Assembly (NCBI RefSeq): GCF_016919245.1
Contig: NZ_JAFEJA010000001.1
Span: forward strand, 1,612,001-1,676,000
Reading direction: 5' to 3'
Length of the DNA: 64,000 bases
Source: Streptomyces zhihengii
GTDB taxonomy: Bacteria > Actinomycetota > Actinomycetes > Streptomycetales > Streptomycetaceae
The notes beneath the pieces are model-generated. The model was not told where the DNA came from and did not search any database. It worked only from the letters and a program-made list of their open reading frames with translations. Positions 22,948-39,088 of the stretch are shown one piece after another; within the stretch, counting starts at the first letter, position 1; the number at the start of each line of letters is the position of its first letter. Both the position numbers and the translations under genes were made by a program.

Positions 22948-23415
22948 GACACTTCCCTTCTTGCTTCGACAGACGTGCCCGCTTTGCGCGGAGCTCGCAC
23001 CGGCATTCCTCAGAGCCTGACGTGTGGCCCATAAAGGTCTTCTGGACGGTCTCTGGATTTCAGTTCCAGGGCCGTTTCACAGGTATGGACCGCGCGCGGG
23101 GCGGCACGGCAGCGGTGCCGCGCCGACCCGTCCGGGCCTGACCTGGAAGGACATGACGGACCCACCCCGTCGCACACGAACGCGGCGACGAGGTGAGGAC
23201 GATGTCCGGAATTCACGCCGCACACGGGCAGCGCAAAGACGGGGTGAATACGGGCTCACGACGAACCGGAGTAGCGGATGAATGGCCCGGCCGCGGTGTG
23301 CGGTGGCGCATTGTCCCCGTCCGGCACGCCATTCCTTTCGCCCGGGATGATTTCCGCCGTCCCTATGATTGTGGACTGGCGTTCGGACGGTGGCATCTCC
23401 CGTGTTGCTCTCCCG
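22948..23415. other. 468-bp non-coding region upstream of halogenase 2, with promoter and possible leader
   Basis: No convincing protein-coding gene. On the minus strand it holds the conserved box at 23411-23391, a possible -10 (CACAAT, 23373-23368), then about 420 nt of leader before the halogenase ATG. A 32-codon frame starts with ATG at 23311, exactly 100 nt after the beginning of the box, the same distance at which the other boxes precede real genes. Its translation (MRHRTPRPGHSS...) resembles nothing I recognise. A weak box-like stretch (CTGAGGAATGCCGG) also lies at about 23013-23000. Confidence 0.6.
23391..23411 (-). promoter_or_regulatory. Conserved cluster box, copy E (halogenase/LAL operon)
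   Basis: Reads AGAGCAACACGGGAG then ATGCCA on the minus strand, matching about 16 of 21 positions of copy A. It lies 5 bp after the RmlB stop. The last six bases could serve as a -35, with CACAAT 17 bp further as the -10. Confidence 0.6.
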
Positions 23416-24390
23416 TCACCGGGCCCGGCGGTCCTCCGCGTCCCACCAGCCGGGGTGGTCCCGGTACCAGGCCACCGTCTCGGCGAGGCCCTGCTCGAAG
23501 GGCACGGCGGGCTCGAAGCCCAGCTCCTCGCGGAGTTTGGTCCCGTCCAGCGAGTAACGCCGGTCGTGGCCCTTGCGGTCGGCGACCGGGCGGACCCGGC
23601 CGGGGCCGGCCCCGCAGAGGGCCAGCAGCCGTTCGGTGACCTGCCGGTTGGTCCGCGGCGTACCGCCGCCGACGTGGTACACCTCGCCGGCGCGGCCCTT
23701 GGCCAGGACGAGCTGGAGCGCCCGGCAGTGGTCGTCGACGTGGATCCACTCCCGCACGTTGGTGCCGTCGCCGTAGAGCGGCACGCTCTCCCCGGCCAGC
23801 AGCCGGGTGGTGAAGAGCGGGATGAGCTTCTCCGGGTGCTGGTGGGGCCCGTAGTTGTTGGAGCACCGGGTCACGGACACGTCCAGGCCGTGGGAGTGCC
23901 AGTAGGCGCTCGCGATCAGATCGCTGCCCGCCTTGGTCGCCGCGTAGGGCGAACTCGGGTCCAGCGGCCACCCCTCGGTCCACGAGCCGTCGTCGATGGA
24001 GCCGTACACCTCGTCCGTGGAGACATGGAGCACCCGGGGCACCTCGGCGTGCAGGCACGCCTCCAGCAGCGTCTGGGTGCCGGCCACGTTGGTCCGCACG
24101 AACGCGGCGGGGGCGGACAGCGACCGGTCGACATGGGACTCGGCGGCGAAGTGCACCACCGCGTCGTGCCCGGGCAGCAGGTCGAGCAGGAGCGGCGCGT
24201 CGCAGACGTCCCCCCGGACGAACGTCATCCGGGGGTGCGCGGCGGGCAGGTTGCCGCGGTTGCCGGCGTAGGTGAGCAGGTCGAGCACGGTGACATGGGC
24301 GTCCTCGTAGCCCGGGTACTCGCCCCTGAGCATGGCGCGGACGTAGGCCGAGCCGATGAACCCGGCACCGCCGGTCACGAGAATTCTCAT
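23416..24390 (-). CDS. rmlB: dTDP-glucose 4,6-dehydratase
   Basis: Short-chain dehydrogenase of 324 aa converting dTDP-glucose to dTDP-4-keto-6-deoxyglucose, the first committed step of deoxysugar synthesis. NAD motif at the N-terminus (VTGGAGFIGSAYV). Catalytic STDEVYGS carries the Thr/Asp/Glu set of this family, and the active-site YxxxK is SPYAATKAG. Length is normal for the family. It is the last gene of the leftward sugar operon, 27 bp after the nucleotidyltransferase gene. The signature is distinctive among sugar-nucleotide dehydratases, so confidence is high. The dTDP rather than other NDP specificity is inferred from the neighbouring thymidylyltransferase. Confidence 0.95.
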   Translation of the reverse strand: MRILVTGGAGFIGSAYVRAMLRGEYPGYEDAHVTVLDLLTYAGNRGNLPAAHPRMTFVRGDVCDAPLLLDLLPGHDAVVHFAAESHVDRSLSAPAAFVRTNVAGTQTLLEACLHAEVPRVLHVSTDEVYGSIDDGSWTEGWPLDPSSPYAATKAGSDLIASAYWHSHGLDVSVTRCSNNYGPHQHPEKLIPLFTTRLLAGESVPLYGDGTNVREWIHVDDHCRALQLVLAKGRAGEVYHVGGGTPRTNRQVTERLLALCGAGPGRVRPVADRKGHDRRYSLDGTKLREELGFEPAVPFEQGLAETVAWYRDHPGWWDAEDRRAR

Positions 24391-24417
24391 CCGGTCAGCC
24401 TCATCAGGTCGTCTGGG

Positions 24418-25485
24418 TCAGGTGGTCTGGAGGCGCACGCTGGCGTGGTCGCCGACCATCAGCCGGTGCCGGCGTTCCGGTCCGGCCGACGTCACCTGGG
24501 CCGCCCGGCCGATCACCGAACCGTGCAGCCCCTCGACGCCGTCGACTGTCGCCGCGTCGAGCACGATGGAGTACGAGACCTCGGAGCCGGTCACCACGCA
24601 GCCGTCGCCGACGGCGGTGTCGGGGCCGATGACGCTGCCCTCGACGACGGTGCCCCGGCCGATGCAGACGGGGCCGGTGATGGTCGAGCCGGCCACCCGG
24701 CTGCCGGCCCCGATCCGGACGGCGCCGGTGATGCGGCTGCTGTCGTCGACCGTGCCCGCCACCTCGGGGACGAGGGTGCGCAGCATCTCGCGGTTGCACT
24801 CCAGCATGTCGTCGACGCTGCCCATGTCCCGCCAGTAGCCGGTGTGCCGGGAGGCGCGGACGTCGTGCCCGCGGTCGATCAGCCACTGGACGGCGTCGGT
24901 GATCTCCAGCTCGCCGCGGGCGCTCGGCCCGATCGCGGCGACGGCCTCGTGGATGCGCGCCGTGAAGACGTACACCCCGATCAGCGCCAGGTCGCTGCGC
25001 GGCCTGGCCGGCTTCTCCACGACGCGCACCACCCGCCGCTCGGCGTCGAGTTCGGCGACACCGAAGGCGCGCGGGTCGGCGACCGGCTGGACGGCGAGCC
25101 GCGCGGGGGTGCGGTGGGCCCGGAAGTCGTCGAGGACGCCGCCGATGCCCTGCGGCAGCATGTTGTCGCCGAGGTACATCACGAAGTCGTCGTCGCCGAG
25201 GAACTCCCGGGCGACGGCCACCCCGTGGGCCAGGCCCCGGGGCGCGTCCTGCGGGAGGTAGGTGATCCGCAGGCCGAGCGCGCGGCCGTCGCCGAGCGCC
25301 TCGGCGATGTCCTCGGCGTAGCCCCCGACCACGATCCCGACCTCGGTGAGGCCCTGCGCCCGCAGGTCCTGGAGGATGTGCACCAGCACGGGCTTGTTGG
25401 CCACCGGGATGAGCTGCTTGGGCATGGTGTGGCTGAACGGCCGCAGCCGGGTGCCGGTGCCGCCCGCGAGGACGAGGGCCTTCAC
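24418..25485 (-). CDS. rmlA: Glucose-1-phosphate thymidylyltransferase (StrD-type, long form)
   Basis: 355 aa. Nucleotidyltransferase domain begins LAGGTGTRLRPFS, followed by MPKQLIPVANKPV and the metal-binding MYLGDNML. The C-terminal 100 residues are hexapeptide left-handed beta-helix repeats (IGAGSRVAGSTITGPV), as in the long antibiotic-cluster type. It activates glucose-1-phosphate with dTTP for the next enzyme, encoded 27 bp downstream. GTG start at 25485 overlaps the stop of the preceding membrane-protein gene (GTGA), which fixes the start and suggests translational coupling. Confidence 0.95.
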   Translation of the reverse strand: MKALVLAGGTGTRLRPFSHTMPKQLIPVANKPVLVHILQDLRAQGLTEVGIVVGGYAEDIAEALGDGRALGLRITYLPQDAPRGLAHGVAVAREFLGDDDFVMYLGDNMLPQGIGGVLDDFRAHRTPARLAVQPVADPRAFGVAELDAERRVVRVVEKPARPRSDLALIGVYVFTARIHEAVAAIGPSARGELEITDAVQWLIDRGHDVRASRHTGYWRDMGSVDDMLECNREMLRTLVPEVAGTVDDSSRITGAVRIGAGSRVAGSTITGPVCIGRGTVVEGSVIGPDTAVGDGCVVTGSEVSYSIVLDAATVDGVEGLHGSVIGRAAQVTSAGPERRHRLMVGDHASVRLQTT

Positions 25486-26759
25486 GAGGCGGCCCCCGTC
25501 CCGGGCGCGGACCGTGACACCGGCTCGCCGGCCGGCGCGGGCGCTGGCGCGGTCCGCCCGCCGCCGTAGACCAGCCGGCGCATCAGCGCGTCCAGCGGGC
25601 CCTGGCGTCCGGCGCGCTCCAGCGCGACGGCGACGGCCACCACCGTCAGCCAGACCCCGACGGCGACGGCCGCGGCGCCGGTGGCGTGGATGTGGTCGCC
25701 CAGTCCGAAGGCGACCCGGGCGAGGACCAGGGCGAGCAGCGCGGACTGGAGCAGATAGCACGTCAGGGAGCGCCGGCCCACGGCCGCGAGGGCGCGGCTC
25801 ACCGGCCCGGGCTCCAGCCCCCGGTCCCGCGTCCGCGCCACGAGCAGCCCGAACACGGCCGCGTAGGCGAGGCCGCCGCAGAAGCCGGTGACCACGTGCA
25901 GGCCGGTGACGAGGCCGGTCGCCAGGTCGCCGGCCCGCCAGGTGCCCGCGCCGACGAGGGCGAGCGGCACGCCGCCGAGCACGGAGACCGTGCCGCCCCA
26001 CACCGCGACCCGCCGCAGCAGCGCCCGGTGCGCGCCGGGGTCGTCGAGGTAGCGCTTGCGCGCGGCCCAGGCGCCGACCAGGATCGCGGCCGGGATCGGC
26101 CAGCCGAGCAGGATGTGCAGCGAGGCGAACGGCACCTGGGCGAGGCGCTCGCCGAGCGCGGAGACGTAGTCGTCGGCCCACACCGTGCCGCGCACGGCCG
26201 CCGCGTCCTCGGTCTGCTCCACCGCCACGGCGACCGACAGCAGGACGGCGGTGACCGCGCCCACGGCCGCGCTGATCACGACGCCCTTGCCCAGCGCCCG
26301 GTCGCCCCGGGTGAGCAGCCAGCCGAACAGCAGCGCGGCGACCCCGTAGGGCGCGAGGATGTCGGCGGGGAAGACGAACACGAAGTGCGCGAAGCCGAAC
26401 AGCACCAGGAAGAGGCCGCGCTTGCGCAGCAGCCGGCCGGACGCCTTCGCGGAGGTGCCCGCGGCGCGCTGCCGCATGACGAGCATCGCCATGCCGTAGC
26501 CGAAGAGCGCGGCGAACATCGGGTAGGCGCGGTTGTCGACGAGGTCCAGCCCGAGGAAGGTGACGGTGCGGTCGAGCGCGTCACCGCCCTGGGGGTGGGT
26601 CACCGGGCCCGGGTCGCTGCCCGTCACGTACATCGGCGCGTGCGCCAGGGCGATGAGCAGCAGCATGAAGCCGCGCGCGATGTCGGGGGCCGGGGAGCGC
26701 TCGGCGGCGGTCACCCCCCGGCGTCTGACCGGCGTGTTCTCAGTCCTGCGGGTCGCCAT
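25482..26759 (-). CDS. DUF418-family integral membrane protein
   Basis: 425 aa with about ten hydrophobic segments. Features seen are PDIARGFMLLLIALAHAP near the N-terminus, NRAYPMFAALFGYGM, and a C-terminal DUF418-type region with RSLTCYLLQS. Proteins of this family are common in actinomycetes and sometimes occur in biosynthetic clusters. A transport or acyl-transfer role is only speculation, because catalytic residues are not defined. It sits inside the sugar operon, between epimerase and thymidylyltransferase, overlapping the latter by 4 bp, so it is co-expressed with sugar formation although it has no known step in that pathway. Start ATG 26759 (MATRRTENTPV). Confidence 0.85.
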   Translation of the reverse strand: MATRRTENTPVRRRGVTAAERSPAPDIARGFMLLLIALAHAPMYVTGSDPGPVTHPQGGDALDRTVTFLGLDLVDNRAYPMFAALFGYGMAMLVMRQRAAGTSAKASGRLLRKRGLFLVLFGFAHFVFVFPADILAPYGVAALLFGWLLTRGDRALGKGVVISAAVGAVTAVLLSVAVAVEQTEDAAAVRGTVWADDYVSALGERLAQVPFASLHILLGWPIPAAILVGAWAARKRYLDDPGAHRALLRRVAVWGGTVSVLGGVPLALVGAGTWRAGDLATGLVTGLHVVTGFCGGLAYAAVFGLLVARTRDRGLEPGPVSRALAAVGRRSLTCYLLQSALLALVLARVAFGLGDHIHATGAAAVAVGVWLTVVAVAVALERAGRQGPLDALMRRLVYGGGRTAPAPAPAGEPVSRSAPGTGAAS

Positions 26760-26833
26760 GGAGTCCTCCGAGGGGTGGTGTCCGGCCCGGGCCGGCCGGG
26801 CCGGGCCCTCACGGTCGGGCATGGGGTGTCTGC

Positions 26834-27424
26834 TCACCGGGAAAGGGCCCGGCAGGCCGCGTAGTCGGGCAGCAGGCCCGCCGCGCGGGCCTCGGCGAGG
26901 GTCGGCGCGGCGAGGTCGCGCGCGGACATGACGGGCTCGGTCCCCTCCGGGAGGGGCAGCCCCAGCTCCGGGTCGTGGAAGGAGAGCGCCAGTTCGTCGG
27001 CGGCCACGTAGCTGCTGGTCAGCATGTAGGACATGACGGTGTCGTCCTCCAGCGCCACGAAGGCGTGGCCGACGCCGACGGGGAAGTACATCGCCCGGAA
27101 GTCGACCTGGTCCATCAGCACCGCGTCCCACTTCCCGTAGGTCGGGGAGCCGACGCGGATGTCGACGACGATGTCGAGCGCGGAGCCGCGCGCGCAGTAC
27201 ACGTACTTGGTGGTGCCCGGCGGTGTCGCGGTGTAGTGGATGCCGCGGACGACTCCCCGCGCGGAGCGGCTGTGGTTGGTCTGCGCCGCCCGGAAGTGCC
27301 GGTGTCCCACCGCCTTCTCGAACGCCGCCGACTGGAACGGCGAGACGAACAGGCCGCGTTCGTCGGGGAAGACGGTCGGGGTGAACTCCACGGCTCCCTC
27401 GACGGCGAGTTCGCGTACTTCCAT
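26834..27424 (-). CDS. dTDP-4-keto-6-deoxyhexose 3,5- (or 5-) epimerase
   Basis: Cupin-fold RmlC-like epimerase of 196 aa. Shown by FPDERGLFVSPFQ at the N-terminus, RGIHYTATPPGTTKYV with the catalytic His, and DIVVDIRVGSPTYGKW. It inverts C5 (and possibly C3) of the 4-keto sugar, converting a D- to an L-sugar. In pathways where C3 carries an amino group, the enzyme usually acts as a 5-epimerase. It lies in the sugar operon 105 bp downstream of the aminotransferase gene. Its presence is the reason to predict an L-configured aminosugar. Sequence alone does not decide between 5- and 3,5-epimerization. Confidence 0.9.
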   Translation of the reverse strand: MEVRELAVEGAVEFTPTVFPDERGLFVSPFQSAAFEKAVGHRHFRAAQTNHSRSARGVVRGIHYTATPPGTTKYVYCARGSALDIVVDIRVGSPTYGKWDAVLMDQVDFRAMYFPVGVGHAFVALEDDTVMSYMLTSSYVAADELALSFHDPELGLPLPEGTEPVMSARDLAAPTLAEARAAGLLPDYAACRALSR

Positions 27425-27529
27425 GGCTCCTCCAGGGCACGGGCCCGTCGCGGTCGCCGACGGGAGGGGGCGGGGCGGTGGCGGCGGGCCGGCGGCGGCC
27501 CGGATCCGCCCAGGTCCGGGCGAAGGCCC

Positions 27530-28639
27530 CTACAGCGCGGCCAGCACCTCGCGCAGGACGCCGATCACGCGGTCCTGCACGGCGGGGGCGAGCGAGGGGT
27601 ACATCGGCAGCGAGAAGATCTGTCCGGCCAGCGACTCGGTGACGGGCAGCGAGCCGGCCGGCACACCGAGGCCGGCGAAGCCGGACATGGTGTGCACGGG
27701 CCAGGGATAGCTGATGTTGAGGTCGATGTCGTGCTCCCGCAGCGCCTGGAGGATCCGGTCCCGCTCGGGGTGGCGCACCACGTACACGTAGTAGACGTGG
27801 TCGTTGCCGGGGGCGAGGGCGGGCAGCACCAGGCCGGTGCCGGCCAGGCCCTCGGCGTAGCGCTCGGCGACGGCGCGGCGGGCGGCGACGTAGGCGTCGA
27901 GGCGGGGCAGTTTGCGGCGCAGTATCTCGGCCTGCACCTCGTCGAGCCGGGCGTTGTGGCCCGGGGTCTCGACGACGTAGTAGCGCTCCTCCATGCCGTA
28001 GTACCGCAGCCGGCGCAGCCGTGCGGCGGTGTCGTCGCCGCGCACCAGCACCGCGCCGCCGTCGCCGTAGGCCCCGAGGACCTTCGTCGGGTAGAAGGAG
28101 AAGGCCGCCGCGTCGCCGGTGGTGCCCGCGAGGACGCCGTCGTGCCGGGCCCCGTGGGCCTGGGCGCAGTCCTCCAGCAGGGCGAGTCCGTGCTCGGCCG
28201 CGACCGTCCGCAGCGGTGCCAGGTCGACGCACTGCCCGTAGAGGTGGACGGGCAGCAGACAGCGGGTGCGCGCGGTGACGGCGGAGGCCACCTGGGCGGT
28301 GTCCATCAGGTAGGTGTCGGGGTCGATGTCCACGAACACCGGCTTCGCGCCGACCGAGTCGATGGCGACCACCGTCGGCGCCGCCGTGTTGGAGACGGTG
28401 ACCACCTCGTCGCCCGGCCGGACGCCGAGCGCCTGGAGGGCCAGTTTGATGGCGTTGGTGCCGTTGTCGACGCCGACGCAGTGCGGCATGCCGTGGTAGG
28501 CGGCGAACTCCCTCTCGAAGCCGTGGGTGCTGGCGCCGAGGACGAGCCGGCCGGAGGAGAAGACGGTCTCGACGGCGTCGAGGATGTCCTTCCGCTCGGC
28601 GGCGTACTCCTCCAGGTAGTCCCACACTCTGGTCGTCAC
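27530..28639 (-). CDS. NDP-hexose 3-aminotransferase (DegT/DnrJ/EryC1 family)
   Basis: 369-aa fold-type I PLP enzyme. The internal aldimine lysine is in [18 protein letters not shown]; other family landmarks are [13 protein letters not shown] and LPVHLYGQ. Within a deoxysugar operon this family transaminates a 3-keto (or 4-keto) NDP-sugar using glutamate. The accompanying 2,3-dehydratase produces a 3,4-diketo-2,6-dideoxy sugar, so attack at C3 is inferred. GTG start at 28639 overlaps the methyltransferase stop (GTGA). A homologous group makes 3-amino-5-hydroxybenzoate in ansamycin clusters, but no other AHBA genes are seen here. Confidence 0.93.
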
Positions 28640-29361: not shown

Positions 29362-29378
29362 GCTTGTCCCCTGTCCCC

Positions 29379-30407
29379 TCAGTCGGATGTCGTGGTGCCG
29401 GCCAGGGCGGCCACGGTCCGCTCCAGGGCGTCCCGCAGCCCGATCTCCGGCCGCCAGCCGGTCACGGCCCGGTAGGCGGCGGAGTCGATGGTCACGCTGT
29501 CGAAGTCCGTCGCGGGCGCGGTGGGCGGCGGCTCGACGGAGACGACCGGCACCGGGTCGCGGCCGAGCCGCAGCGCGACCAGCTCCGCGACGGTGCGGCA
29601 CACCTCGCCGAGCGCGTCGCCCCGGCCCGCGCCGAGCGGCCAGTGGCGTCCGGCCAGTTCACCGCCGTGGCCGAGTGCGGCGGTGAACGCCCGGGCGATG
29701 TCGTCGACGTGGACGAGGTCGCGCTTGACGCTGCCGTCGTGCCAGAGGGTGAGCGGTTCGCCGGCGAGGGCGCGCCGCACCATGAAGGAGACCACCCCGC
29801 GGTCCGCCCCGTGGGGGGCGCCGGTGTGTCCGAAGACCGTCGGCAGGCGCAGGCTGACGCCGCGTACGACGCCGTCCGCGGTGGCGTCCAGCAGGATCCG
29901 CTCGGCCGCGAGCTTGTGCGCGTCGTAGGCGGTGTGCGGGCGGTCCCGCTCGCCGCCGTCGACCGGCCGGCCACCCGTCAGGCCGACCTGGGAGGCGGCG
30001 CCCGCGTAGAGGACCAGCGGCGGCGTGCCGCCCGGCCGCCGCTCGCGCAGGATCCCGCAGAGGTTCTCCATGACGCCGACGTTGGCGGCGCGGGCGGCGG
30101 GGTCGCTCTCGGCGGCCCGCCAGCCGCCGCCGTGCATCACGAGGTGGACGATCACGTCCGCGCCCTCGACCGCGGCCGCGAGCTCACCGGCGTCGGTGAG
30201 GTCGGCGCGGCGCACCTCCGCGGTGCTCCCCGGGGAGAGGACCGGGCCGCTGTCGCGGCGGGCGACGGCGCGCAGCCGTACGGGCCGTCCGGCGAACGCG
30301 GCCGTCACGGCGGAGCCGACGAAGCCGGAGGCACCGAGGACGACGACGCCGGGCGGGCGGTGCGGGCCGTGCTCCGGCGCGCCGGAGCGCTGTGCCGCGG
30401 TGGTCAT
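29379..30407 (-). CDS. NDP-hexose 4-ketoreductase (extended SDR)
   Basis: 342-aa extended short-chain dehydrogenase. The N-terminal cofactor motif is [13 protein letters not shown] and the active-site YxxxK is [11 protein letters not shown]. It also has the family-typical substrate region [11 protein letters not shown]. Such proteins reduce the C4 keto group of NDP-deoxysugars at the end of the pathway. ATG at 30407 overlaps the 2,3-dehydratase stop (ATGA), fixing the start and indicating translational coupling. The stereochemical outcome at C4 cannot be predicted, so the final sugar (rhodosamine-, megosamine- or acosamine-like) is open. Confidence 0.88.
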
Positions 30408-31759
30408 GACGGCTCCCCCCGCCCGGCTTCCGCCGTGCCGTACGCCGGGTGCTCCAGGGCGTGCAGACAGGCCAGCAGGCTGCGCGCCTGCATGGTGACG
30501 TAGTGGCTGTGGCGCAGCAGCGCGGAGAGCTGGGCGGGGGTGGTCCAGCGGTAGCCGGGCGGTTCCGGCAGGTGTCCGGTCTCGACGATCAGGTGGCGGC
30601 TGCGGGTGTGGAAGAGCCGGCCGCCCTCGTCGGAGAGGACGGTGTCGAAGAGGATCCGGTCCGGCCCCGCGCCCAGGACCTCGTCGAGGAAGCGCGGCCG
30701 CCCGGTGCCTGAGTCCGATTCGTGGTCGCGCGGGGTGCACTGCACGGTGGGGCCGAGTTCGAGGACGTCGACGAAGCCCGGTTCGACGCGCTGCCGGACG
30801 AGCACGTGCAGCACGCCCTCGACCCGGGTCACGAGGAAGGCGACCAGGCCGGTGCCGTGGGCCGCGATCATCGGCTGGCCCCATGCGGCGACCTCGCGGC
30901 CGGCGGCCTTCACCCGGACGCCGATGACGTCGAAGAAGCGGCCGCTCTCGTGGGAGATGGCGAGCGGGTCGCGCCGCCAGCGCTCCAGCCGGGGCAGCGG
31001 CACGCGTTCGGTGGTGACCTCGATCCGGCTGCGGGCCTCGGTGATCCAGCTCAGGAGCGGTGCCGTGCCGGAACGGCCGCCCGGCGGGGAGGCCGGGGCG
31101 TCGGGCGGGAAGGGCAGACAGGCCAGCACGCTGCGGGCGTCCATGCCGACCAGGTCGTCGAAGCGGAGCAGGCCGAGCAGTTCGCCGAGCGGCAGCCAGC
31201 GGAAGCCCTCGGCGGCCGGCACCTCCTCGGCCGTCTCCACGATCATGTTGCGGTTCCGCTTGCGCAGGAACCACGTGCCCTGCTCGGACTGCCGGGAATC
31301 GGCGAGGATGCGGTGCGCACCGGCCTCACGGAAATACCGGAGATAGGGAACCGATTTCCCGCGGTGCACTCCGGTGAAATTGCTCCGGGTGGCCTGGACG
31401 GTGGGAGAGAGCTGGAGTCCGTTGATGTTCCCCGGCTCCGCCTTCGCCTGCATCAGGCAGTGGAGTTCGCCGTCGATCCGGCGTACGAGAATTCCGAGGA
31501 TTCCCGTCTCCGGCTGGTTGATGACGGGCTGGTCCCAGTGTTCGACGGGGCCGCCCGCGTGATGCGTCCGGATGCCCTCTATGGAGAAGAAGCGGCCGGT
31601 GTGATGCGTCAGGGCCGGGGCGTCGGGGTCGCAGTGCCAGCCGGTCACGGAGGCCAGCGGGACCCGCTCGACGTGGGTGTAGATGCTCTTCCGGGCGTCC
31701 TCGAACCAGTGCCGGAAAGCTGACGGCACGGATGGTGAATCACCCATTGATGCATTCAT
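30404..31759 (-). CDS. NDP-hexose 2,3-dehydratase (TylCVI/EvaA-like)
   Basis: 451 aa built from two homologous halves, the hallmark of the family. Compare TGRFFSIEGIR near residue 55 with SGRFFDVIGVR near residue 265, each followed by a W.QP and a G.QLSPTVQ/ELGPTVQ segment. It removes the C2 hydroxyl of NDP-4-keto-6-deoxyhexose, giving the 3,4-diketo-2,6-dideoxy intermediate. No 3-ketoreductase is seen nearby, so the intermediate is likely channelled directly to the aminotransferase. Start chosen at ATG 31759 (MNASMGDS) with GAGAG upstream. It is the first gene of the sugar operon, with the conserved box 99 nt upstream. Confidence 0.93.
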   Translation of the reverse strand: MNASMGDSPSVPSAFRHWFEDARKSIYTHVERVPLASVTGWHCDPDAPALTHHTGRFFSIEGIRTHHAGGPVEHWDQPVINQPETGILGILVRRIDGELHCLMQAKAEPGNINGLQLSPTVQATRSNFTGVHRGKSVPYLRYFREAGAHRILADSRQSEQGTWFLRKRNRNMIVETAEEVPAAEGFRWLPLGELLGLLRFDDLVGMDARSVLACLPFPPDAPASPPGGRSGTAPLLSWITEARSRIEVTTERVPLPRLERWRRDPLAISHESGRFFDVIGVRVKAAGREVAAWGQPMIAAHGTGLVAFLVTRVEGVLHVLVRQRVEPGFVDVLELGPTVQCTPRDHESDSGTGRPRFLDEVLGAGPDRILFDTVLSDEGGRLFHTRSRHLIVETGHLPEPPGYRWTTPAQLSALLRHSHYVTMQARSLLACLHALEHPAYGTAEAGRGEPS

Positions 31760-31837
31760 CAGCAACTCTCGGGGACTAGGTCGGGACTGCGGCATCACAT
31801 TTCGTGGTGCCTGATTTTCTCGCAGTCCGTCGCCTTG

Positions 31838-31858
31838 TGGCGTCTCCCAGATTGCTCA
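31838..31858 (-). promoter_or_regulatory. Conserved cluster box, copy A (sugar operon promoter)
   Basis: Minus strand reads TGAGCAATCTGGGAG then ACGCCA. It begins 99 nt before the 2,3-dehydratase ATG. A -10-like GAAAAT lies 18 bp beyond the box (31819-31814). The box end would overlap the -35. Confidence 0.7.
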
Positions 31859-31922
31859 CACCGGGCGTCGGGCCTTTACTTCCCGGCATGGGGCGGCCGG
31901 CCGGGGCCGGCCGCCGGTGCGA

Positions 31923-32555: not shown

Positions 32556-32733
32556 CGTCGATCACTTCCTCGTCACTGCTACGGCGTCCGGCGCCACGGG
32601 GTGGAGAGCGGAGGACCGCCGGGCCGGTCGCCGCCGCACCGGCAGACCAGGCAAGTATGACTGCCGGCCGGCGGCCCCGGCGGACGGCCCCGCCCGGGGG
32701 CGGGAAGCGGTGGAGCCCCGGCAGGGCGGGCGG

Positions 32734-34083
32734 TCAGTCAAGGGCGCCGGCCGCGGGTGAGCGGCGCGCCGCGATCAGCGACCTGACGACCCGGTCCGGG
32801 CGGAGGACCGCGGCGGGCTTCGCGAGCAGGTGCTGCACGTCCAGCATGACGCGGTGCGCGGGCACCGAGACATGGCTGGCGAGCATGACCTGGCGGACGT
32901 AGCGGTTGAGCAGGTCCGTCCCCACGCCCTTGGCGCCGACCGTCTCCGGGTACATGAAGTCGCTGCTGGTGGACATCTGCCACGGCGTGTCGATCACCCG
33001 GGCCGCCGCGCGGTAGAAGCGGCGGGCCATCGCGGGGGTCGCGGCGCCGTGGCGGTCGAGGGAGCGGGCGAGCTCGACGGCCTCCAGGGTGGCCGTCGTC
33101 ATGCCCTGCCCGTACAGGGGGTTGAAGCTGCAGATGGCGTCGCCGAGCGCGACGAAGCCCTCCGGCACCTTCTTCAGGCGCTCGAACCAGCGCCGCCGGG
33201 CGGCCGGGTAGGTGAAGCGCTCCGCGTTCTGGTCGTCGACCGGCTTGGTGCGGGCCAGCAGGTCCGAGACGATGGAGGTGGGCAGCCCGTCGGCGAAGGC
33301 GGTGAAGCCCTCCGGGTCGACCGGGGCGTGCGAGCGGTGCCAGCCGCCGAGGGTGACGATCCAGCGGTCGCCCTCGACCGCGAAGACCGCGGCGGCCCGC
33401 TTGTCCCCGGGCGGCACCGCGGACATCAGGAACAGCAGGGCGTCGTCGGCCAGTTCACCGCCCTGGCGGTGCATCACCCGGGTCGTGTAGCCGACGTCGA
33501 TCTTGACCGTGGTGGTCTTCGGCGCGGGGCAGTCGAGCTCCTCCAGCCAGCGGTCGGTCCGTCCGGCGCTGCGCCCGGTGGCGTCGACGACGAGTTCGGC
33601 GCCGATCCGCGATCCGTCGTCGAGTTCGACGCCCAGCACCCGGCCGGACACGCCGAAGAGCCCGCTCACCGCCGTGCGGTCGCGGATCTCCACGTTGGGC
33701 AGGGCGGCCACCCGGCGGCGGATGGTGTGCTCCAGGTAGGCGCGGGTGAGGCTGATGCCGAGCTGACCGCTCTCGAAGCGGGTGCGCAGCGCGCCCATCT
33801 GGTGGAAGAGCAGGTCGTGTCCGGGGTCGAAGGGCACCGCGCCGCCGGCGATCAGCTCGTCGGTGAGGGCCGGGAAGAGCCGGTCCAGTGTGCGGCGCCC
33901 GCTGATGAGCAGCGCGTGGGCGTGCGGGCTCTGCGGCACGCCCTTCCGGTCCGCTGCCGTGTCGGGGAGCGTGTCCCGGTCGAGGACCGTGACCGATGTG
34001 AACCTGCTGGACAGCGTGCGGGCGGCGACCAGGCCGCCGATCGACCCTCCGATGATCACCGCGTGTCCGCCGATGACGCCCAC
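32734..34083 (-). CDS. FAD-dependent monooxygenase, MonCI/LasC-like epoxidase group
   Basis: 449 aa. The N-terminal FAD fold is VIIGGSIGGLVAARTL. The segment DRKGVPQSPHAHALLISG and the C-terminal GDAICSFNPLYGQGMTTA match the group that includes polyether epoxidases (MonCI, LasC). Members epoxidize polyene chains; others are halogenase-like or hydroxylases. No WxWxIP is present, so halogenation is unlikely. GTG start at 34083 has GGGGAGGG immediately upstream. It is preceded by a conserved cluster box at 97 nt, which puts it under the same control as the sugar operon. No epoxide hydrolase is seen in the window. The assignment to epoxidase rather than hydroxylase is tentative. Confidence 0.8.
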   Translation of the reverse strand: MGVIGGHAVIIGGSIGGLVAARTLSSRFTSVTVLDRDTLPDTAADRKGVPQSPHAHALLISGRRTLDRLFPALTDELIAGGAVPFDPGHDLLFHQMGALRTRFESGQLGISLTRAYLEHTIRRRVAALPNVEIRDRTAVSGLFGVSGRVLGVELDDGSRIGAELVVDATGRSAGRTDRWLEELDCPAPKTTTVKIDVGYTTRVMHRQGGELADDALLFLMSAVPPGDKRAAAVFAVEGDRWIVTLGGWHRSHAPVDPEGFTAFADGLPTSIVSDLLARTKPVDDQNAERFTYPAARRRWFERLKKVPEGFVALGDAICSFNPLYGQGMTTATLEAVELARSLDRHGAATPAMARRFYRAAARVIDTPWQMSTSSDFMYPETVGAKGVGTDLLNRYVRQVMLASHVSVPAHRVMLDVQHLLAKPAAVLRPDRVVRSLIAARRSPAAGALD

Positions 34084-34159
34084 GAGCCCTCCCCTGCAAG
34101 ATGGCGAAATGCGGTGCGAGCGCACCGCCCGGCACATTCTCGGCAGGCCGCCCGGGAAT

Positions 34160-34180
34160 TGTCTTCTCCAGGGTTGCTCA
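34160..34180 (-). promoter_or_regulatory. Conserved cluster box, copy B (epoxidase promoter)
   Basis: Minus strand TGAGCAACCCTGGAG then AAGACA, 97 nt before the GTG of the flavin oxygenase and just after the AraC stop. A half-copy (TGACGCAATCCCGGG) lies directly upstream, making a direct repeat. The -10-like GAATGT is about 20 bp beyond. Confidence 0.7.
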
Positions 34181-34196
34181 GCGGCCCGGGATTGCG

Positions 34197-34934
34197 TCAG
34201 CAGGCGAAGAGTTCCGGGAGGGCGGCGCCTATCGTGGCGCGTTCCGCGTCGAAAAGCCTTACCCGGGAGGGGGGTTGCAGGACGAGATCGACCGTCACCG
34301 TGGAACCGGGCGAGATGTAGAACGGACCGGCCGTGCCCACCGCGATGGGCTGCTTCCCGCCGCCCACTCTGCGGGACACGGCCTGAATGTGCCAGGGGCC
34401 CTCGGGGACGTATTCGATGCACCACGTTCCTTTTCCCTGTTCCATTCGGCAGCAGCGGGCGGGGCGTTCCTGGCGGGTGAGCGGGGGAATGGCGGCGACG
34501 AACACCGGCTCGTCCTCCTGGCCGTCGGCACGGAAAATCCGGCCGCGGAACGATCCGTAGGCGAATGGCGCGTCGTCCCTGCGGCCGGCGGTGAAATCGA
34601 CGGCGGCGGGGCCGAGCTGGGCGAGCCGCCGGAAGCGGCCGGGCGAGACGCCGACGCTCCGGGTGAAGCGGGTCGTGAAGGTGCCGAGGCTCGAGTAGCC
34701 GACCTGTACGGAGATGTCGGCGACGCGGTCGGAGGTGCACAGCAGCTTGCGCTTGGCGACCTCCTGGCGGACCGCCGTGAGGAAGCGGGCGGGCGGGAGC
34801 CCGGTCTCCTGCCGGAAGAGCCGGGCCATGTGGAAGGAGCTCAGCCGGGCCGTGTCCGCCAGGACACAGAGCGACAGCTCCTCGTCGTACCGGTGACGTA
34901 TCGCTTCGACGACGCTTTCGATCTCGGGCCGCAT
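34197..34934 (-). CDS. AraC-family regulator with N-terminal HTH and C-terminal beta domain
   Basis: 245 aa. The two AraC helix-turn-helix motifs lie at the N-terminus (about 20-105: FHMARLFRQETGLPPARFL, then VADISVQVGYSSLGTFTTRF), opposite to the classical arrangement. The remaining 140 residues form a different domain ending in a repeated-strand pattern (VPEGPWHIQAV, VGTAGPFYISPGSTV), similar to the AraC protein at 36007-36798. ATG at 34934 has GGGGAG upstream. It is transcribed divergently from the ABM gene, with 200 bp between them containing a strong palindrome. It probably controls that intergenic region; ligand unknown. Confidence 0.88.
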   Translation of the reverse strand: MRPEIESVVEAIRHRYDEELSLCVLADTARLSSFHMARLFRQETGLPPARFLTAVRQEVAKRKLLCTSDRVADISVQVGYSSLGTFTTRFTRSVGVSPGRFRRLAQLGPAAVDFTAGRRDDAPFAYGSFRGRIFRADGQEDEPVFVAAIPPLTRQERPARCCRMEQGKGTWCIEYVPEGPWHIQAVSRRVGGGKQPIAVGTAGPFYISPGSTVTVDLVLQPPSRVRLFDAERATIGAALPELFAC

Positions 34935-35067
34935 GCAGGACTCCCCGTGAGGTGTACGCGCACCTGCACACCCCTGCCGGACCGGGACCGCATGGCTGGC
35001 GGGCTCCGGGGGCGAAGTGTGCCGACATCTGTGGAGCCGCTGGTCACCGCGGGGGTTCCCGAACGGC

Positions 35068-35122
35068 TTGCCTGTAAGCGTAGTGTACCTCTAGAGTCCG
35101 ACATGAGACAGTGACTCTAGAG
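35068..35122 (+). promoter_or_regulatory. Promoter of the ABM gene with overlapping palindromic operator
   Basis: Candidate -35 TTGCCT at 35068-35073 and -10 TAGAGT at 35092-35097 (18-bp spacer). The 10-bp inverted repeat CTCTAGAGTC (35089-35098) / GACTCTAGAG (35113-35122), with a 14-bp gap, covers the -10 and start region. This is expected of a repressor site; each arm also contains the palindrome CTCTAGAG. Confidence 0.6.
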
Positions 35123-35134
35123 AGGGACTTGGCC

Positions 35135-35425
35135 ATGACCGTCGTCCGGATCACGCGCTTCAGGACCGACCCCGCCAACGACGCGGAGATGATCGACAAG
35201 CGGGCCACCCTCATCGCCGCGGTCCGCGAGTCCTACCCGGGGCTCACCGAGGCCCGCCTCGGCCGCCTCGAGGACGGCACCTGGGTGGACCACTGGTACT
35301 GGGAGTCCACCGAGCACATGCAGAAGGCACTGGCCGCGGCGCCCACCATCCCCGAGGCGGGTGCGGCGTTCGCGCTCACCACGGACACCACCGCCGAGTC
35401 CGCGGAGATCGTGGCCGTCGTCTGA
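35135..35425 (+). CDS. Small antibiotic-biosynthesis-monooxygenase (ABM)-like protein
   Basis: 96-aa single ferredoxin-like domain. It begins TVVRITRFRTDP and has the ABM-type central stretch WVDHWYWESTEHMQKAL. Stand-alone ABM proteins act as cofactor-free oxygenases, as heme-degrading enzymes, or have no known reaction. Nothing here decides which. ATG 35135 is chosen over an upstream GTG because AGAGGGA lies 9 nt upstream and the GTG falls within the operator. It lies between two paralogous AraC genes and is followed by a strong terminator, so it is a monocistronic, separately regulated gene. Confidence 0.8.
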   Translation: MTVVRITRFRTDPANDAEMIDKRATLIAAVRESYPGLTEARLGRLEDGTWVDHWYWESTEHMQKALAAAPTIPEAGAAFALTTDTTAESAEIVAVV

Positions 35426-35462
35426 GGCACCGCCGGCCGCGGCCGGCACATCGCGCACCACG

Positions 35463-35505
35463 GCTTCTGCCCGCACGGTTCACCGTGCGGGCAGAAGCTT
35501 TTTTT
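35463..35505 (+). terminator. Rho-independent terminator after the ABM gene
   Basis: A perfect 17-bp stem (35463-35479 with 35482-35498) is followed by a run of seven T. It starts 38 bp after the stop codon. It is the clearest intrinsic terminator in the window. Confidence 0.92.
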
Positions 35506-36006
35506 GCATTTCCTTGGTGAACCCCCTGCGATTTCCCCGGTCGCTTACCCGGCCACCACGCCCGGACATTCCCGAAGGCGCCCAGAAGGGCATGCGGCAG
35601 AGATATCCGACATCCGCGCCATACCGCTGCCGTAGGGGCCACCCCTAAGGGGGGAACCGCAAGAATGAAGAAGACACCGGCATCCGGGGTCTGCGAGGCT
35701 CTCCGGGTAAGGGCAGTCCACCGTCGCCGATGCGGAACTCACCCCGGACACACAGCCGGTGAGCCGATCTCGAATATCACGCGCACTATGTGAGAACCAA
35801 CGCGTCGCACCGTCTTCGCGCAGTCGACCGCACATCCCGGAGACAGCCGCCCCGGACATTCCGCCACGTATTTCCGGGACTTGGCACATCATGCCCGCCG
35901 AGCTGTCTCCCGTCCGGGTCCACGCGCGACACATCGCGCTGCACGGGCACTTCCGTACCACGGAGTTCCACCGGAGTTCCACGGACTTCCACGAAGAAGA
36001 ATCCAC
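35506..36006. other. 500-bp intergenic region upstream of the second AraC gene
   Basis: No convincing gene. It contains AGGGGCCACCCCTAAGGGGG near 35635, also partly present in the halogenase-PKS gap near 15855. It also contains a 42-codon frame (ATG 35665, stop 35791-35793, MKKTPASGVCEAL...) behind GGGGGGA, and three tandem 11-bp units GGAGTTCCACC / GGAGTTCCACG / GACTTCCACGA at about 35962-35994, just before the AraC ribosome site. The repeats are plausible operator elements. Confidence 0.55.
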
Positions 36007-36798
36007 ATGGGGGCCATCATGGAGTACGCAATTCAATGCGCAGTGAAGACGATCCGAGAACGGTACTTCGAACCGCTGACACTGGATGAGTTAGCCCACG
36101 CCGCCATGGTGAGCAAGTTCCACTTCCTGCGGTCGTTCCGGCGCATCACCGGAGTCACCCCCGGCCGTTTTCTCAGCGCGATACGGCTCCATGAGGCGAA
36201 GATCCTGCTGCTCACCACCTCGCTGAACGTGAGCGACATCGGCGCCCAGGTCGGCTACAGCAGCACCGGCAGCTTCACCCGGCGCTTCAGCGAGTCCGTG
36301 GGCTGCTCCCCCACCCAGTACCGGCACTCCGGCCACAGCCAGAACCCGCCCGTCGACCCGGGCATCGCCCTCGCCGCCGAACGTCCCGCCGAGCGGGAGC
36401 GGGACCTGCTCCCGGAGGCGGGACCGCGCCAGGAGCAGGAGCAGGGCTGTGTCACCGGAGTGGTGAAGGCCCCCGGCAGGACCGCGTCCGGCATCTACAT
36501 CGGTGTCTTCGAGAGCCCCATCCTGGAGCGCACGCCGGCGGCCCGCGCGGTGGTCGCGCACTCGGGCCAGTTCCGCATCGGCGGGGTGCCCGAGGGGACC
36601 TGGTACGTCCACGCGGTGGCACAGGGGACGCATCCCTGCGGCACCGGGGACACCACGGCCCGTCAGCTCCTGGTGGGCACCGCGGGACCGGTCCAGGTGG
36701 GGCCCGGCACCGACCCGATCGTGCAGATGACGCTCCATCCGCTGGGCTGGTCCAACCCGCCGATCCTCTTCGCCTTCCCCGGCGAGGGGGCCGCCTGA
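36007..36798 (+). CDS. AraC-family regulator with N-terminal HTH and C-terminal beta domain (second paralogue)
   Basis: 263 aa (259 if the ATG at 36019 is used). The AraC DNA-binding domain is N-terminal (FHFLRSFRRITGVTPGRFL, then VSDIGAQVGYSSTGSFTRRF). A variable linker rich in Glu/Arg follows, and then a C-terminal beta-strand domain with VPEGTWYVHAV and VGTAGPVQVGPGTDP, clearly homologous to the end of the AraC protein at 34197-34934. The shared C-terminal domain resembles a small transthyretin/carboxypeptidase-regulatory fold (inference), an unusual partner for an AraC HTH. It ends in a bidirectional terminator shared with DoxX. Confidence 0.88.
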   Translation: MGAIMEYAIQCAVKTIRERYFEPLTLDELAHAAMVSKFHFLRSFRRITGVTPGRFLSAIRLHEAKILLLTTSLNVSDIGAQVGYSSTGSFTRRFSESVGCSPTQYRHSGHSQNPPVDPGIALAAERPAERERDLLPEAGPRQEQEQGCVTGVVKAPGRTASGIYIGVFESPILERTPAARAVVAHSGQFRIGGVPEGTWYVHAVAQGTHPCGTGDTTARQLLVGTAGPVQVGPGTDPIVQMTLHPLGWSNPPILFAFPGEGAA

Positions 36799-36841
36799 CC
36801 TGCGGGGCCGTCTCGCGGGCCGAAGCCCCCGAGACGCGTCG

Positions 36842-36886
36842 CGAGGGCCGGTCCGGATGTGCGCCGCACATCCGGACCGGCCCTCG
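36842..36886. terminator. Bidirectional hairpin between AraC and DoxX genes
   Basis: A perfect 21-bp stem (36842-36862 with 36866-36886) with a 3-nt loop lies between the convergent stops. No T-run, but the stem is very stable. Confidence 0.75.
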
Positions 36887-36918
36887 TCGTCATGCGGCCG
36901 GGCGTCCGGCCGGGGAGA

Positions 36919-37293
36919 TCAGAAGCTGTACTCGCCGAAGCGGCCCCAGGCGACGAACGCGGCCAGCGCCAGCAGGACGAGGTTGACCACCACGGCGGGC
37001 GCCTCCTTGCGCCGGATGTGGACGACCGCGGCGAGGGCCATGGTGATCGCGAGTCCGGTCGCCGCGACGGGCACCAGCACGGGGGCGATGTCGAGGACCG
37101 CGGGCAGCACCAGGCCGATGGCCCCGAGCACCTCGACGACCCCGATTCCCTTGACCGCTCCGTCGGAGAAGTCGGCGGCCCACGGCATGTTGCCGGCCAC
37201 CAGCTTCGACTTCGGGGTGACGACCTTCATCAGGCCGACGGCGGCGAACAGGAAGGCAAGGATTCCGGCGACGATCCATAAGGTGGTGTTCAT
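36919..37293 (-). CDS. DoxX-family small membrane protein
   Basis: 124 aa with four predicted transmembrane helices (TTLWIVAGILAFLFAAVGLM at the N-terminus; GIGVVEVLGAIGLVLP in the second). The short polar segment TPKSKLVAGNMPWAADF between helices 1 and 2 is typical of the DoxX-like family. Members are associated with redox and thiol homeostasis or remain uncharacterized. It is on the minus strand, between the VHPO gene and the AraC terminator. Role in the cluster is unknown. Confidence 0.85.
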   Translation of the reverse strand: MNTTLWIVAGILAFLFAAVGLMKVVTPKSKLVAGNMPWAADFSDGAVKGIGVVEVLGAIGLVLPAVLDIAPVLVPVAATGLAITMALAAVVHIRRKEAPAVVVNLVLLALAAFVAWGRFGEYSF

Positions 37294-37426
37294 GTCTGTC
37301 TTTCCTCTGCTTTCTCATCGGTGAGCTGAGTCAAAGGCTCCCCCCGAACGCCTCTGCGCTGTCTGTGTCGTCTGCGTTCTCTGCGTATCTCCGGTCCGGC
37401 CGGAACCACCGCACGGACGTGCCGGA

Positions 37427-37456
37427 GCCCCGGCACGGGACATCCCGTGCCGGGGC
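37427..37456 (-). terminator. Hairpin downstream of the haloperoxidase-like gene
   Basis: A perfect 14-bp stem (GCCCCGGCACGGGA and its complement) with a 2-nt gap begins 27 bp after the haloperoxidase stop. Confidence 0.7.
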
Positions 37457-37483
37457 CGCGTCACACGGTGCGGACGACGGCCG

Positions 37484-38992
37484 TCACACCTCCCCCTCGA
37501 TGTGCGACCGGACGAACTCGTATGCCCGGTCGCCGATCTTGCGCCCCATGGACCAGGACGCCTCGATCGCCGGCATGAAGTGGACCCCGCCCCAGAACCG
37601 GCTGAGTCCGCAGTCCCTGGTCCAGTCGGTCCAGGAGGTCCAGTGGAGCTCCAGCGGCTGACGGGGCGTCACATCCGGTTCGACGGCCGAGGAGTGCGCG
37701 GCGCGGGAGACCCTGATGTCCACCGCGTCCGTCCCGAGGAAGCGCCGGACCGACTGCGCCTCGGCGGAGCAGAGCGAGGTGGATCCGGACGGGTACTCGG
37801 GGTGGTCGGGGGTGCCGAGGTAGCTCCGCCACTGGTCGGCGGGGATCGACACGGTCCCCTTGCCGGGCCCGCCCCAGGCGCGCACGGGCTTGCGTCCGTA
37901 CACGTGGCGGATCGCGGTGTGCGGGCGGACGGTGTCGTAGACGACCTTGTTGTACCAGGCGAAGATGCTGGCGTCGAAGGTCGCCGTGTCCGCCACCGTG
38001 TGCAGGTGGATCCAGCCGTCGAGGTCGAGCCGGGCCGCATCCGACGCGGAGCCCACGGCGGCGCCGAGGCTCAGGAACTTGTCGTCGAACATCTCGCACT
38101 TCATCTTCTGCTCGTCCGTCAGGCTCGCGGACATGGCGAGGATGTCGTCCACCTGGCGCCGGTACTCGGCGCGGTTGTGGTGGTTGCTGGCCCTCGGCAC
38201 GGGCGCCCGGAACTCGCTCGGGTCGCTGTACGAGTAGGGCCGCACCCGGGCGAGCTGCGGTGTCACGAACTGCTGGACCTGGAAGATCCCGTTGCCCTTG
38301 GTGACGACGAGCGGCTGCCACCGCGACGGGTTGCGCAGCCGGTAGGCGGTGTTCTCCGGCTGGTAGCCGGTGTAGTCGGCGTAGGCCAGGCGGTTGTACT
38401 CGCGGCCGCCGTGGTCGCCGAGCTGGTTCATGCCGTCGTGCAGCCGGCTCTCCAGGACGTGGCGGGCGGCGAGGTTGCCGATGCCGGCGGGTGTGCCGGT
38501 GTCCTCCCGCGCGTCGTCGGGGTCCATCCCCACGGAGACCATGGTGTCCCGCCAGAGCTGCTGGTAGCCGGGCAGCAGGAAGTTGTACATGCGGTACGTG
38601 GCGTAGAGCAGCGCGATGTTCTTGTTGCGGTTGGTGGCCGCCTCCGAGGCGGGCCGGCGCCCGAGGTCCGAGTGGATCCCGACCGCGGTGGGGTGGTACG
38701 GCGCGATCGCGTCGAACCAGGCGTGCGCCACCAGGTTGGCGAAGCGGATGATCAGCGAGGCGTCGCTCGGCGCCACGGCCGCCCGCGCGGGCCCGCCGGA
38801 GACCGGCCCGAACACGTCGAGCGCGGCGTTGCCCTTGTCGAAGTCGAAGTGGTGGCGCGGTGTCGCCGCGGCCGCCGGGCGGGCGGCCAGGCCGAAGCCG
38901 TCGGTGGCGACCGCGCCCGTGCCCGCGGCGATGCCGAGCAGAACCGACCTGCGCGGCGTGCCGGGTCTTCCGTTGACCGTCCATGCGCTCAT
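37484..38992 (-). CDS. Vanadium-dependent haloperoxidase-like protein (PAP2 superfamily), exported
   Basis: 502 aa. Start ATG 38992 (MSAWTVNGRPG) has AAGGGGGAT upstream. The N-terminus carries a twin-arginine-like signal (TPRRSVLLGIAAG and an Ala-rich stretch ending in AAAA), so it is probably secreted. The vanadate/phosphate-binding set is visible: KVVYDTVRP (K-x6-RP) near residue 352, PSGS near 402, and SRFWGGVH (S-R-x5-H) near 467. The usual PSGH catalytic His is replaced by Ser. The protein may therefore be a haloperoxidase with altered chemistry, a non-halogenating oxidase/cyclase, or an acid phosphatase relative. A conserved cluster box lies 96 nt upstream, putting it under common control with sugar and epoxidase genes. 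Confidence 0.82.
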   Translation of the reverse strand: MSAWTVNGRPGTPRRSVLLGIAAGTGAVATDGFGLAARPAAAATPRHHFDFDKGNAALDVFGPVSGGPARAAVAPSDASLIIRFANLVAHAWFDAIAPYHPTAVGIHSDLGRRPASEAATNRNKNIALLYATYRMYNFLLPGYQQLWRDTMVSVGMDPDDAREDTGTPAGIGNLAARHVLESRLHDGMNQLGDHGGREYNRLAYADYTGYQPENTAYRLRNPSRWQPLVVTKGNGIFQVQQFVTPQLARVRPYSYSDPSEFRAPVPRASNHHNRAEYRRQVDDILAMSASLTDEQKMKCEMFDDKFLSLGAAVGSASDAARLDLDGWIHLHTVADTATFDASIFAWYNKVVYDTVRPHTAIRHVYGRKPVRAWGGPGKGTVSIPADQWRSYLGTPDHPEYPSGSTSLCSAEAQSVRRFLGTDAVDIRVSRAAHSSAVEPDVTPRQPLELHWTSWTDWTRDCGLSRFWGGVHFMPAIEASWSMGRKIGDRAYEFVRSHIEGEV

Positions 38993-39067
38993 CTGCGGAT
39001 CCCCCTTGTCCGGAAAACGACGGCGGATGTGCCGCCGGGGCACGACCTTCACAGGGGTCACGAGAGG

Positions 39068-39088
39068 TGTCGCCTCCTGGATTGCTCA
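39068..39088 (-). promoter_or_regulatory. Conserved cluster box, copy C (haloperoxidase promoter)
   Basis: Minus strand TGAGCAATCCAGGAG then GCGACA. It starts 96 nt before the haloperoxidase ATG. A -10-like GAAGGT is 17 bp beyond. It follows the SagB oxidase gene, which is on the same strand and ends at 39257. Confidence 0.7.

Follow-up and report, generated by a model that had tools for sequence, protein, structure and literature searches.

Class II promoters of bacterial activators and the promoters of the Streptomyces antibiotic regulatory proteins (SARPs) are the described systems that lie closest to the element considered here. Class II activator sites are typically centred at -41.5, according to passages of PMC10936776, and the class II sites of MarA overlap the -35 hexamer, as stated in a passage of PMC12052159. 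The SARP repeats, in the same passages of PMC10936776, lie 8 bp from the -10 element, with the afs box centred at -29.5. The present analysis concerns a 21-bp box that recurs in front of biosynthetic genes in and around a 64,000-nucleotide stretch of Streptomyces zhihengii DNA (contig NZ_JAFEJA010000001.1, here C1, positions 1612001-1676000, of a 9.73-Mb genome in 7 contigs), which as a whole is called the window below. The box copies and the -10 hexamers that follow them appear to form a set of activator-dependent class II promoters, about 11 in number and spread over about 100 kb, which are probably switched on by one or both of two AraC-type proteins encoded within the cluster.

A Recurrent Promoter Box in the Cluster

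Four minus-strand copies had been described in an earlier reading of the sequence (boxes A to D, Table 1), and all four were confirmed at their exact positions, as were the 15 of 21 bases shared by A, B, and C (hand count) and the location of Box D after the RmlB gene, upstream of the halogenase/LAL operon. The distances of 99, 97, and 96 nt then given from boxes A, B, and C to their genes are consistent with starts at 31759 (which is in the frame of the dehydratase gene), 34083, and 38992. A half-repeat upstream of Box B is present as described, its conservation not being evident by eye. The set of four was real and incomplete, having overlooked two weaker plus-strand copies in the window (E and F) and five copies outside it.

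How local the box is depends on how strictly it is defined. A loose core, TGAGCAAYCNNGGAG with up to 3 mismatches, shows no enrichment, 17 matches being found in the window against 29.9 expected. The pattern NGAGCAAYMNNGGAG has eight exact matches in the genome, seven of which (boxes A to D and three more) lie within the 96 kb of C1:1598620-1694782, all on the minus strand; the eighth (4929793) has no -10 element at the right place. When one mismatch is allowed, 49 matches in the genome stand against 52 for the reversed-pattern control, so that weak copies are uninformative alone and only strong ones are meaningful by themselves. A first matrix of 21 positions (0 to 20), built from the seven copies of the window genome, was run over 220 kb, and its top nine places are all on the minus strand. 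Eight of them score 22.4-31.5, against a maximum of 17.9 in 20 simulated sequences; they include the copy at 1691707, which is not an exact pattern match. The ninth, at 1592356, scores 17.7 and falls within the simulated range. When each of the seven copies was scored with a matrix made from the other six, it ranked between 2 and 8 in the 220 kb.

A second matrix, combined with a -10 profile, was trained on 60 copies, including the eight strong ones of the window genome and those of ten neighborhoods of AraC2-type genes (see below). Its combined score exceeds 11 (box part at least 7) at 11 places in the 220 kb, all of them in the cluster, none elsewhere, and 6 of them in the window. Eight of the 11 took part in the training, so the strong copies are not independent tests in this scoring or in that of the orthologous loci; the weak copies at 1592356, E, and F did not, yet were recovered. 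The strong copies are thus local to the cluster, rather than many equally good ones being scattered over the genome, and the regulon is almost certainly real.

A contiguous 19-base pattern was sought in 392 genomes; among the matches listed, 146 genomes have it, and five or more matches were seen only in the genome of the window (7), in G388 (6), and in G126 (5), the last being counted as one genome with G298, that of L083. In G388, five of the six listed matches are the identical GAGCAACCTCGGCGAAGAC, on contigs C37 and C47; no AraC2 relative was among those listed for this genome, and these copies are perhaps coding repeats. One of 22 one-mismatch loci (L019) has a combined score above 11.

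Table 1. Box copies, candidate regulators, and genes behind the boxes (window position 1 is C1:1612001; genome coordinates on C1, for boxes those of the 5' base)
Feature	Window position	Strand	Genome coordinate	Description
Box A	31838-31858	-	1643858	before NDP-hexose 2,3-dehydratase gene; -10 GAAAAT at 31814-31819; counterparts in 7/7 orthologous loci
Box B	34160-34180	-	1646180	before flavin oxygenase (epoxidase) gene; -10 GAGAAT at 34136-34141; counterparts in 7/7 orthologous loci
Box C	39068-39088	-	1651088	before vanadium chloroperoxidase-type gene; -10 GAAGGT at 39045-39050; counterparts in 7/7 orthologous loci, weak in L085
Box D	23391-23411	-	1635411	directly after RmlB gene, 464 nt before halogenase ATG (22947); -10 CACAAT at 23368-23373
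Box E (weak)	35656-35676	+	1647656	363 nt before AraC2 start; -10 GAGGCT at 35695-35700; counterparts with -10 in 7/7 orthologous loci
Box F (weak)	41050-41070	+	1653050	258 nt before FAD enzyme/methyltransferase/glycosyltransferase genes; -10 GAAAAT at 41089-41094; counterparts with -10 in 7/7 orthologous loci
Outer copy		-	1592356	before gene of a 178-aa protein
Outer copy		-	1598634	before gene of a 119-aa protein, no Pfam match
Outer copy		-	1689417	before ketosynthase gene
Outer copy		-	1691707	before large SARP gene
Outer copy		-	1694783	before second flavin oxygenase-like gene, 106 nt on
AraC1	34197-34934	-		candidate activator; N-terminal DNA-binding domain, Pfam HTH_18; NCBIfam RamA/FtrA-type matches below cut-off
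AraC2	36019-36798	+		best candidate activator; AraC1 paralogue (36% identical); start set by alignment to relatives
LAL regulator	17586-20327	-		AAA_16 and LuxR-type domain (Pfam); downstream of Box D
Large SARP		-	1689554-1691485	outside window; BTAD E 2.7e-45
NDP-hexose 2,3-dehydratase	30404-31759	-		first gene behind Box A; Pfam PF03559
Flavin-dependent oxygenase	32734-34083	-		behind Box B; the epoxidase of the original prediction; weak NCBIfam flavin-oxygenase matches only
Vanadium chloroperoxidase-type protein	37484-38992	-		behind Box C; Pfam VCPO_2nd and DUF6851
FADH2-dependent halogenase-like protein	21667-22947	-		first annotated gene behind Box D; in NCBIfam closest to halogenase CmlS, below cut-off

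Conservation in Related Clusters

The epoxidase behind Box B, used as a query, led to 18 loci, 14 of which (L080-L089, L091, L092, L095, and L096) carry at least one copy above 15 bits; no such copy was found in the other four (L090, L093, L094, and L097, the last 3.4 kb long). In seven of the loci (L080-L085 and L096) the cluster is orthologous and its boxes stand at the same genes; the remaining box-bearing loci, from Streptomyces, Actinacidiphila, Actinoallomurus, and Micromonospora, are rearranged. The Actinoallomurus contig of 99 kb bears about eleven copies that score above 17 bits, some in each orientation, and in genome G301 a strong copy stands at genes matching those behind Box F. 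Across 31 regions that total 1.24 Mb and are 83% coding by prediction, 87 copies score above 18 bits, and the centers of 86 are non-coding. A predicted same-strand start follows within 250 nt for 52 of the 87, as against 7.9% of random places; the gene starts came from a simple composition script rather than a trained gene finder, and the other 35 copies are in part near the end of a piece and in part farther from the start that the script had chosen.

Promoter Architecture

To describe the promoter core, copies at least 62% alike over 110 nt were removed, which left 60 of the 87; orthologues below this limit stay among the 60, so the copies are not fully independent. The matrix by which they were found used positions 0 to 20 only, the -10 positions playing no part, and nonetheless a hexamer of the form xANNNT follows in 59 of the 60, with its A at position 38-41 and nearly always at 39 or 40, whereas windows of the same width elsewhere contain the A...T pair in 1 to 9 of the 60. 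Positions 15-20 of the box read like RTGACA and stand at a fixed distance from xANNNT, which supports the suggestion that the 3' end of the box serves as a -35-like element. The -10-like hexamers predicted to follow it are likewise real: the spacing is 17 bp in 28 of the 59 copies and 18 bp in 31. The first base of the -10 hexamer is T in 4 of 59, and such rarity fits promoters that require an activator.

With the A of the -10 element set at -11, the center of the box falls at -40 or -41 (the real starts may differ). The consensus of the 60 copies is not palindromic by eye, and the site is asymmetric and overlaps the -35 element. As far as this anatomy indicates, the copies would be activator-dependent class II promoters, from which the mechanism proposed below would follow.

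AraC-Type Proteins as Candidate Activators

Both AraC proteins of the window contain the Pfam domain HTH_18 (E 9.5e-21 and 1.2e-21), and the fold of the AraC DNA-binding domain is close to those of SoxS, RamA, Rob, and MarA. When the protein was compared with the Rob/STM3175 type of architecture, the C-terminal part of the AraC2 model matched transthyretin-like domains at middling Z, and that of AraC1 shares the sequence pattern of AraC2. We know of no architecture in which an AraC DNA-binding domain is joined to a transthyretin-like C-terminal domain, no search aimed at it having been made. A limited literature search found no published description of the box motif or of the AraC2 subfamily.

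An AraC2-type gene is present in all 15 of the box-bearing clusters (the window and 14 loci), for L086 and L088 only in longer stretches, and none was found in the box-free loci L090, L093, and L094. AraC1-type genes are present in 13 of the 15, and were not found in 120 kb of G306 or on the 60-kb contig of G309. AraC2-type genes and boxes also go together in places where other candidates were not found, namely the LAL (G303 and G301), AraC1 (G306), and the SARP (the 60-kb G309 contig).

Relatives of AraC2 (E at most 1e-25, with a query that lacked about 24 N-terminal residues) occur in 38 of the 392 Streptomyces genomes, including the window's own. Eight of them, outside G000 and G126, are 47-53% identical, and seven of these (in G087, G062, G282, G050, G021, G105, and G068) have a strong copy within 20 kb, in G050 by pattern match only, the fetched stretch ending there; the eighth, in G017, has a weaker copy. 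The copy precedes a halogenase gene in G087, G021, G105, and G068. The cluster of G105, which we take to be one for a napyradiomycin-type meroterpenoid, combines three relatives of the vanadium chloroperoxidase, a halogenase, an antiporter, and an AraC2 relative, and its chemistry differs from that of the window, with a type III polyketide synthase (PKS), two Orf2-type prenyltransferases, and a polyprenyl synthase. In G068, the AraC2 gene and the box are seen twice (C1:186180 and C1:11938614), near the two ends of the contig and mirrored, as if in terminal inverted repeats.

A held-out comparison was made on the AraC2 neighborhoods that remained once those with nearby pattern matches had been taken. 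These were 20 neighborhoods from 18 genomes (373 kb, 37-53% identity), the AraC2 places in G077, G166, G257, G258, G353, and G362 and the second copies in G116, G155, and G245 being left out, and they were set against 17 control pieces of 20 kb (340 kb). A score for box plus -10 above 16 was found in 14 of the 20 neighborhoods and in 0 of the 17 controls (Fisher p 6e-6). In simulated sequence, 2 Mb yielded 1 match. In 30 genomes that bear AraC2, the pattern is not enriched overall (62 matches against about 92 for the reversed control, among the matches listed), and 13 of the 62 listed matches lie within 50 kb of an AraC2 gene (p about 3e-12 against even spread, calculated from rounded totals).

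Several points weigh against an AraC protein as the activator. Six of the 20 held-out neighborhoods have no match above 16, and the yield falls at stricter thresholds, to 10 of 20 at 18 and 8 of 20 at 20, with the controls still at 0 of 17. The controls consisted of 12 SARP neighborhoods and 5 cluster flanks, with no neighborhood of another AraC subfamily among them. The recognition helices of AraC1 and AraC2 are unlike at several positions, and co-occurrence would neither separate the one protein from the other nor exclude other regulators. Box D, for its part, lies far from its gene, and its counterparts are found in five of the seven orthologous loci, none having been found in L084 and L096. 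Since the box follows the AraC-type genes from cluster to cluster, these genes most likely encode its switch, and, as co-occurrence with AraC2-type genes suggests and as the original prediction had offered as one option, we consider it likely that an AraC1/AraC2-type protein, one or both, is the direct activator of the regulon.

Alternative Explanations

The large SARP is the strongest competitor and was the binder initially favored. It would bind the 11-bp-spaced GAG repeats that the box contains and would activate its own gene along with the cluster, which we now regard as unlikely. In its favor, copies that score 15.3 to 27.1 bits, at -214 to -223, stand ahead of the SARP gene in each of the seven orthologous clusters as well as in the window genome, and several distant clusters have one too. 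Fourteen of the 15 box-bearing clusters contain a SARP of the same clade, the G309 contig being the exception (best match in the G309 genome 43%). The box-bearing SARPs group in a single clade, which takes in 28 of the 51 sequences with support 98/97 (labels assigned in this analysis). The same clade, however, holds 13 members without boxes: nothing above 14.4 bits was found in the 40 kb around six of them, and nothing above 15 bits around the other seven, for which about 4.9 kb each was scanned. No box precedes the SARP in G306 or one of the two SARPs of L092, and boxes occur in AraC2 clusters in which the fetched stretch (2.8 to 40 kb long) shows no SARP of the clade. Nor does the geometry suit a SARP, since 17 or 18 bp, in place of 8 bp, separate the end of the box from the -10 element. 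The SARP gene itself is probably a target of the box regulation.

In the genomes of the 13 box-free SARPs, 274 matches with at most one mismatch were counted against 227 for the reversed control, one of them exact among the matches listed; the largest excess is in G062 (30 against 8), which has an AraC2 relative and a box elsewhere. The combined score was passed, among 53 small SARP loci (230 kb), only by L077 and by L043, the cluster's own SARP locus, and matches in the repeat-coding DNA of SARPs (L075-L078) were taken as coding coincidences. Ahead of several box-free SARP genes, about 47 nt from the start, stands CAGGAGGYGACA, which resembles half a box; it was set aside, as it would read more simply as the ribosome-binding site of an earlier start codon.

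A lesser probability attaches to the LAL, the other activator named in the original prediction, or to another cluster regulator, with TetR-type proteins as repressors. The LAL is encoded within the Box D operon, and several box-bearing clusters contain LAL relatives. No such relative was found, however, in G303 (120 kb searched) or G301 (a 99-kb contig), in each of which boxes are numerous, nor in the meroterpenoid-type AraC2 stretches, and the box is not the inverted repeat that would be expected of a LAL site, all of which leaves the LAL unsupported. It is more improbable still that the box is no activator site and that an alternative sigma factor recognizes it as one long element. The conserved part does run into the -35 element and the distance to the -10 element is fixed; a sigma site would nevertheless be shorter than twenty conserved positions, and the combination of xANNNT and a spacing of 17-18 bp is of the housekeeping type. 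That the copies are alike by chance or through recent duplication of DNA, without function, is hardly credible, for although orthologous loci share ancestry and their copies are therefore not independent, flanks and spacers vary between copies while box and -10 stay, rearranged clusters retain the boxes before operons, and the strong copies score well above the best simulated match.

Genes Behind the Boxes and Neighboring Features

The placement of the boxes supports the view that one activator-type regulon would link genes for sugar formation, oxidation, and halogenation (Table 1). Behind Box D follow, in order, the halogenase, an antiporter, the LAL, a second halogenase, and PKS genes. A small open reading frame after Box D was considered and dropped, as the leader is not conserved as a reading frame by eye. 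The part of this leader nearest the halogenase (22947-23390, about 440 nt from Box D to the halogenase start) is well conserved by eye in L080, L081, L083, L085, and L096, and may be a second control element. The genome has 18 BTAD matches, two of them apparently parts of one gene.

Two further proteins deserve mention. A 537-aa protein (39257-40870) combines Lant_dehydr_C and nitroreductase domains, an unusual fusion in a cluster of PKS and nonribosomal peptide synthetase (NRPS) genes. Outside the window, an 899-aa protein (L034:335-3034, C1:1600335-1603034) matches Pfam only in its second half, by a class III aminotransferase domain, and it adjoins an 820-aa protein without a Pfam match.

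Proposed Mechanism and Comparison with Known Systems

In the model that we propose, each promoter would consist of an activator half (about WGAGCAAYMNNGGMG), the -35-like RTGACA, a spacer of 17 or 18 bp, and the -10 element xANNNT, whose first T is usually absent. AraC1 and/or AraC2, probably monomeric, would cover the -35 region with its DNA-binding domain, which is of the SoxS/RamA/Rob kind, and would recruit the housekeeping RNA polymerase. The genes thereby turned on would be those for sugar, halogenation, oxidation, and PKS functions, the SARP gene that lies beyond the window, and, more weakly, araC2. The copies, the promoter core, their conservation, and the co-occurrence with AraC genes can be read directly from the sequences; from these we infer the binding, the activation, the monomeric state, the sigma factor, the transcript starts, and which AraC protein acts.

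It is quite conceivable, if somewhat doubtful, that an AraC subfamily with a transthyretin-like sensor, responding to pathway metabolites, reads one promoter code in unrelated and often halogenating clusters, by which are meant those for PKS-NRPS glycosides (Streptomyces, Actinacidiphila, Actinoallomurus, and Micromonospora) and for prenylated type III PKS products, and that, the code being shared, halogenase, antiporter, and regulator could move as a working module. If this is true, the box could be used to find silent clusters and to switch them on. For the present cluster, the proposed model, if right, offers a testable promoter code for large clusters of halogenated products, with about 11 promoters and two candidate activator genes; the box together with its -10 would serve as a signature of very low background. 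The model would further describe a class II AraC switch that acts upstream of a SARP and governs an entire actinobacterial cluster, and a regulator whose unusual putative sensor domain is common to chemically different pathways.

Compared with SARP-activated promoters of the AfsR and ActII-ORF4 type, the system is alike in its direct GAG periodicity of 11 bp, in the SARP gene within the cluster, and in the cluster-wide activation that is proposed. It differs in that the box lies one helical turn too far upstream and does not track the SARP between clusters. Clusters of the G105 type, which share box and regulator, are unlike the present one in that a type III PKS and aromatic prenyltransferases replace the modular PKS, NRPS, and deoxysugar genes. 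With the class II promoters of MarA, SoxS, Rob, and RamA, the system shares an N-terminal AraC-type DNA-binding domain, an asymmetric site of about 20 bp that overlaps the -35 element, and a normal -10 element. Unlike those, it has another site sequence, is actinobacterial, and has its pair of regulator and site spread over a biosynthetic cluster. The C-terminal domain of AraC2 is predicted to be transthyretin-like and would then be unlike the effector domain of Rob. Cluster-situated AraC switches and class II sites are thus of known kinds; what would be new are the box, the architecture of the regulator, and its spread over different clusters.

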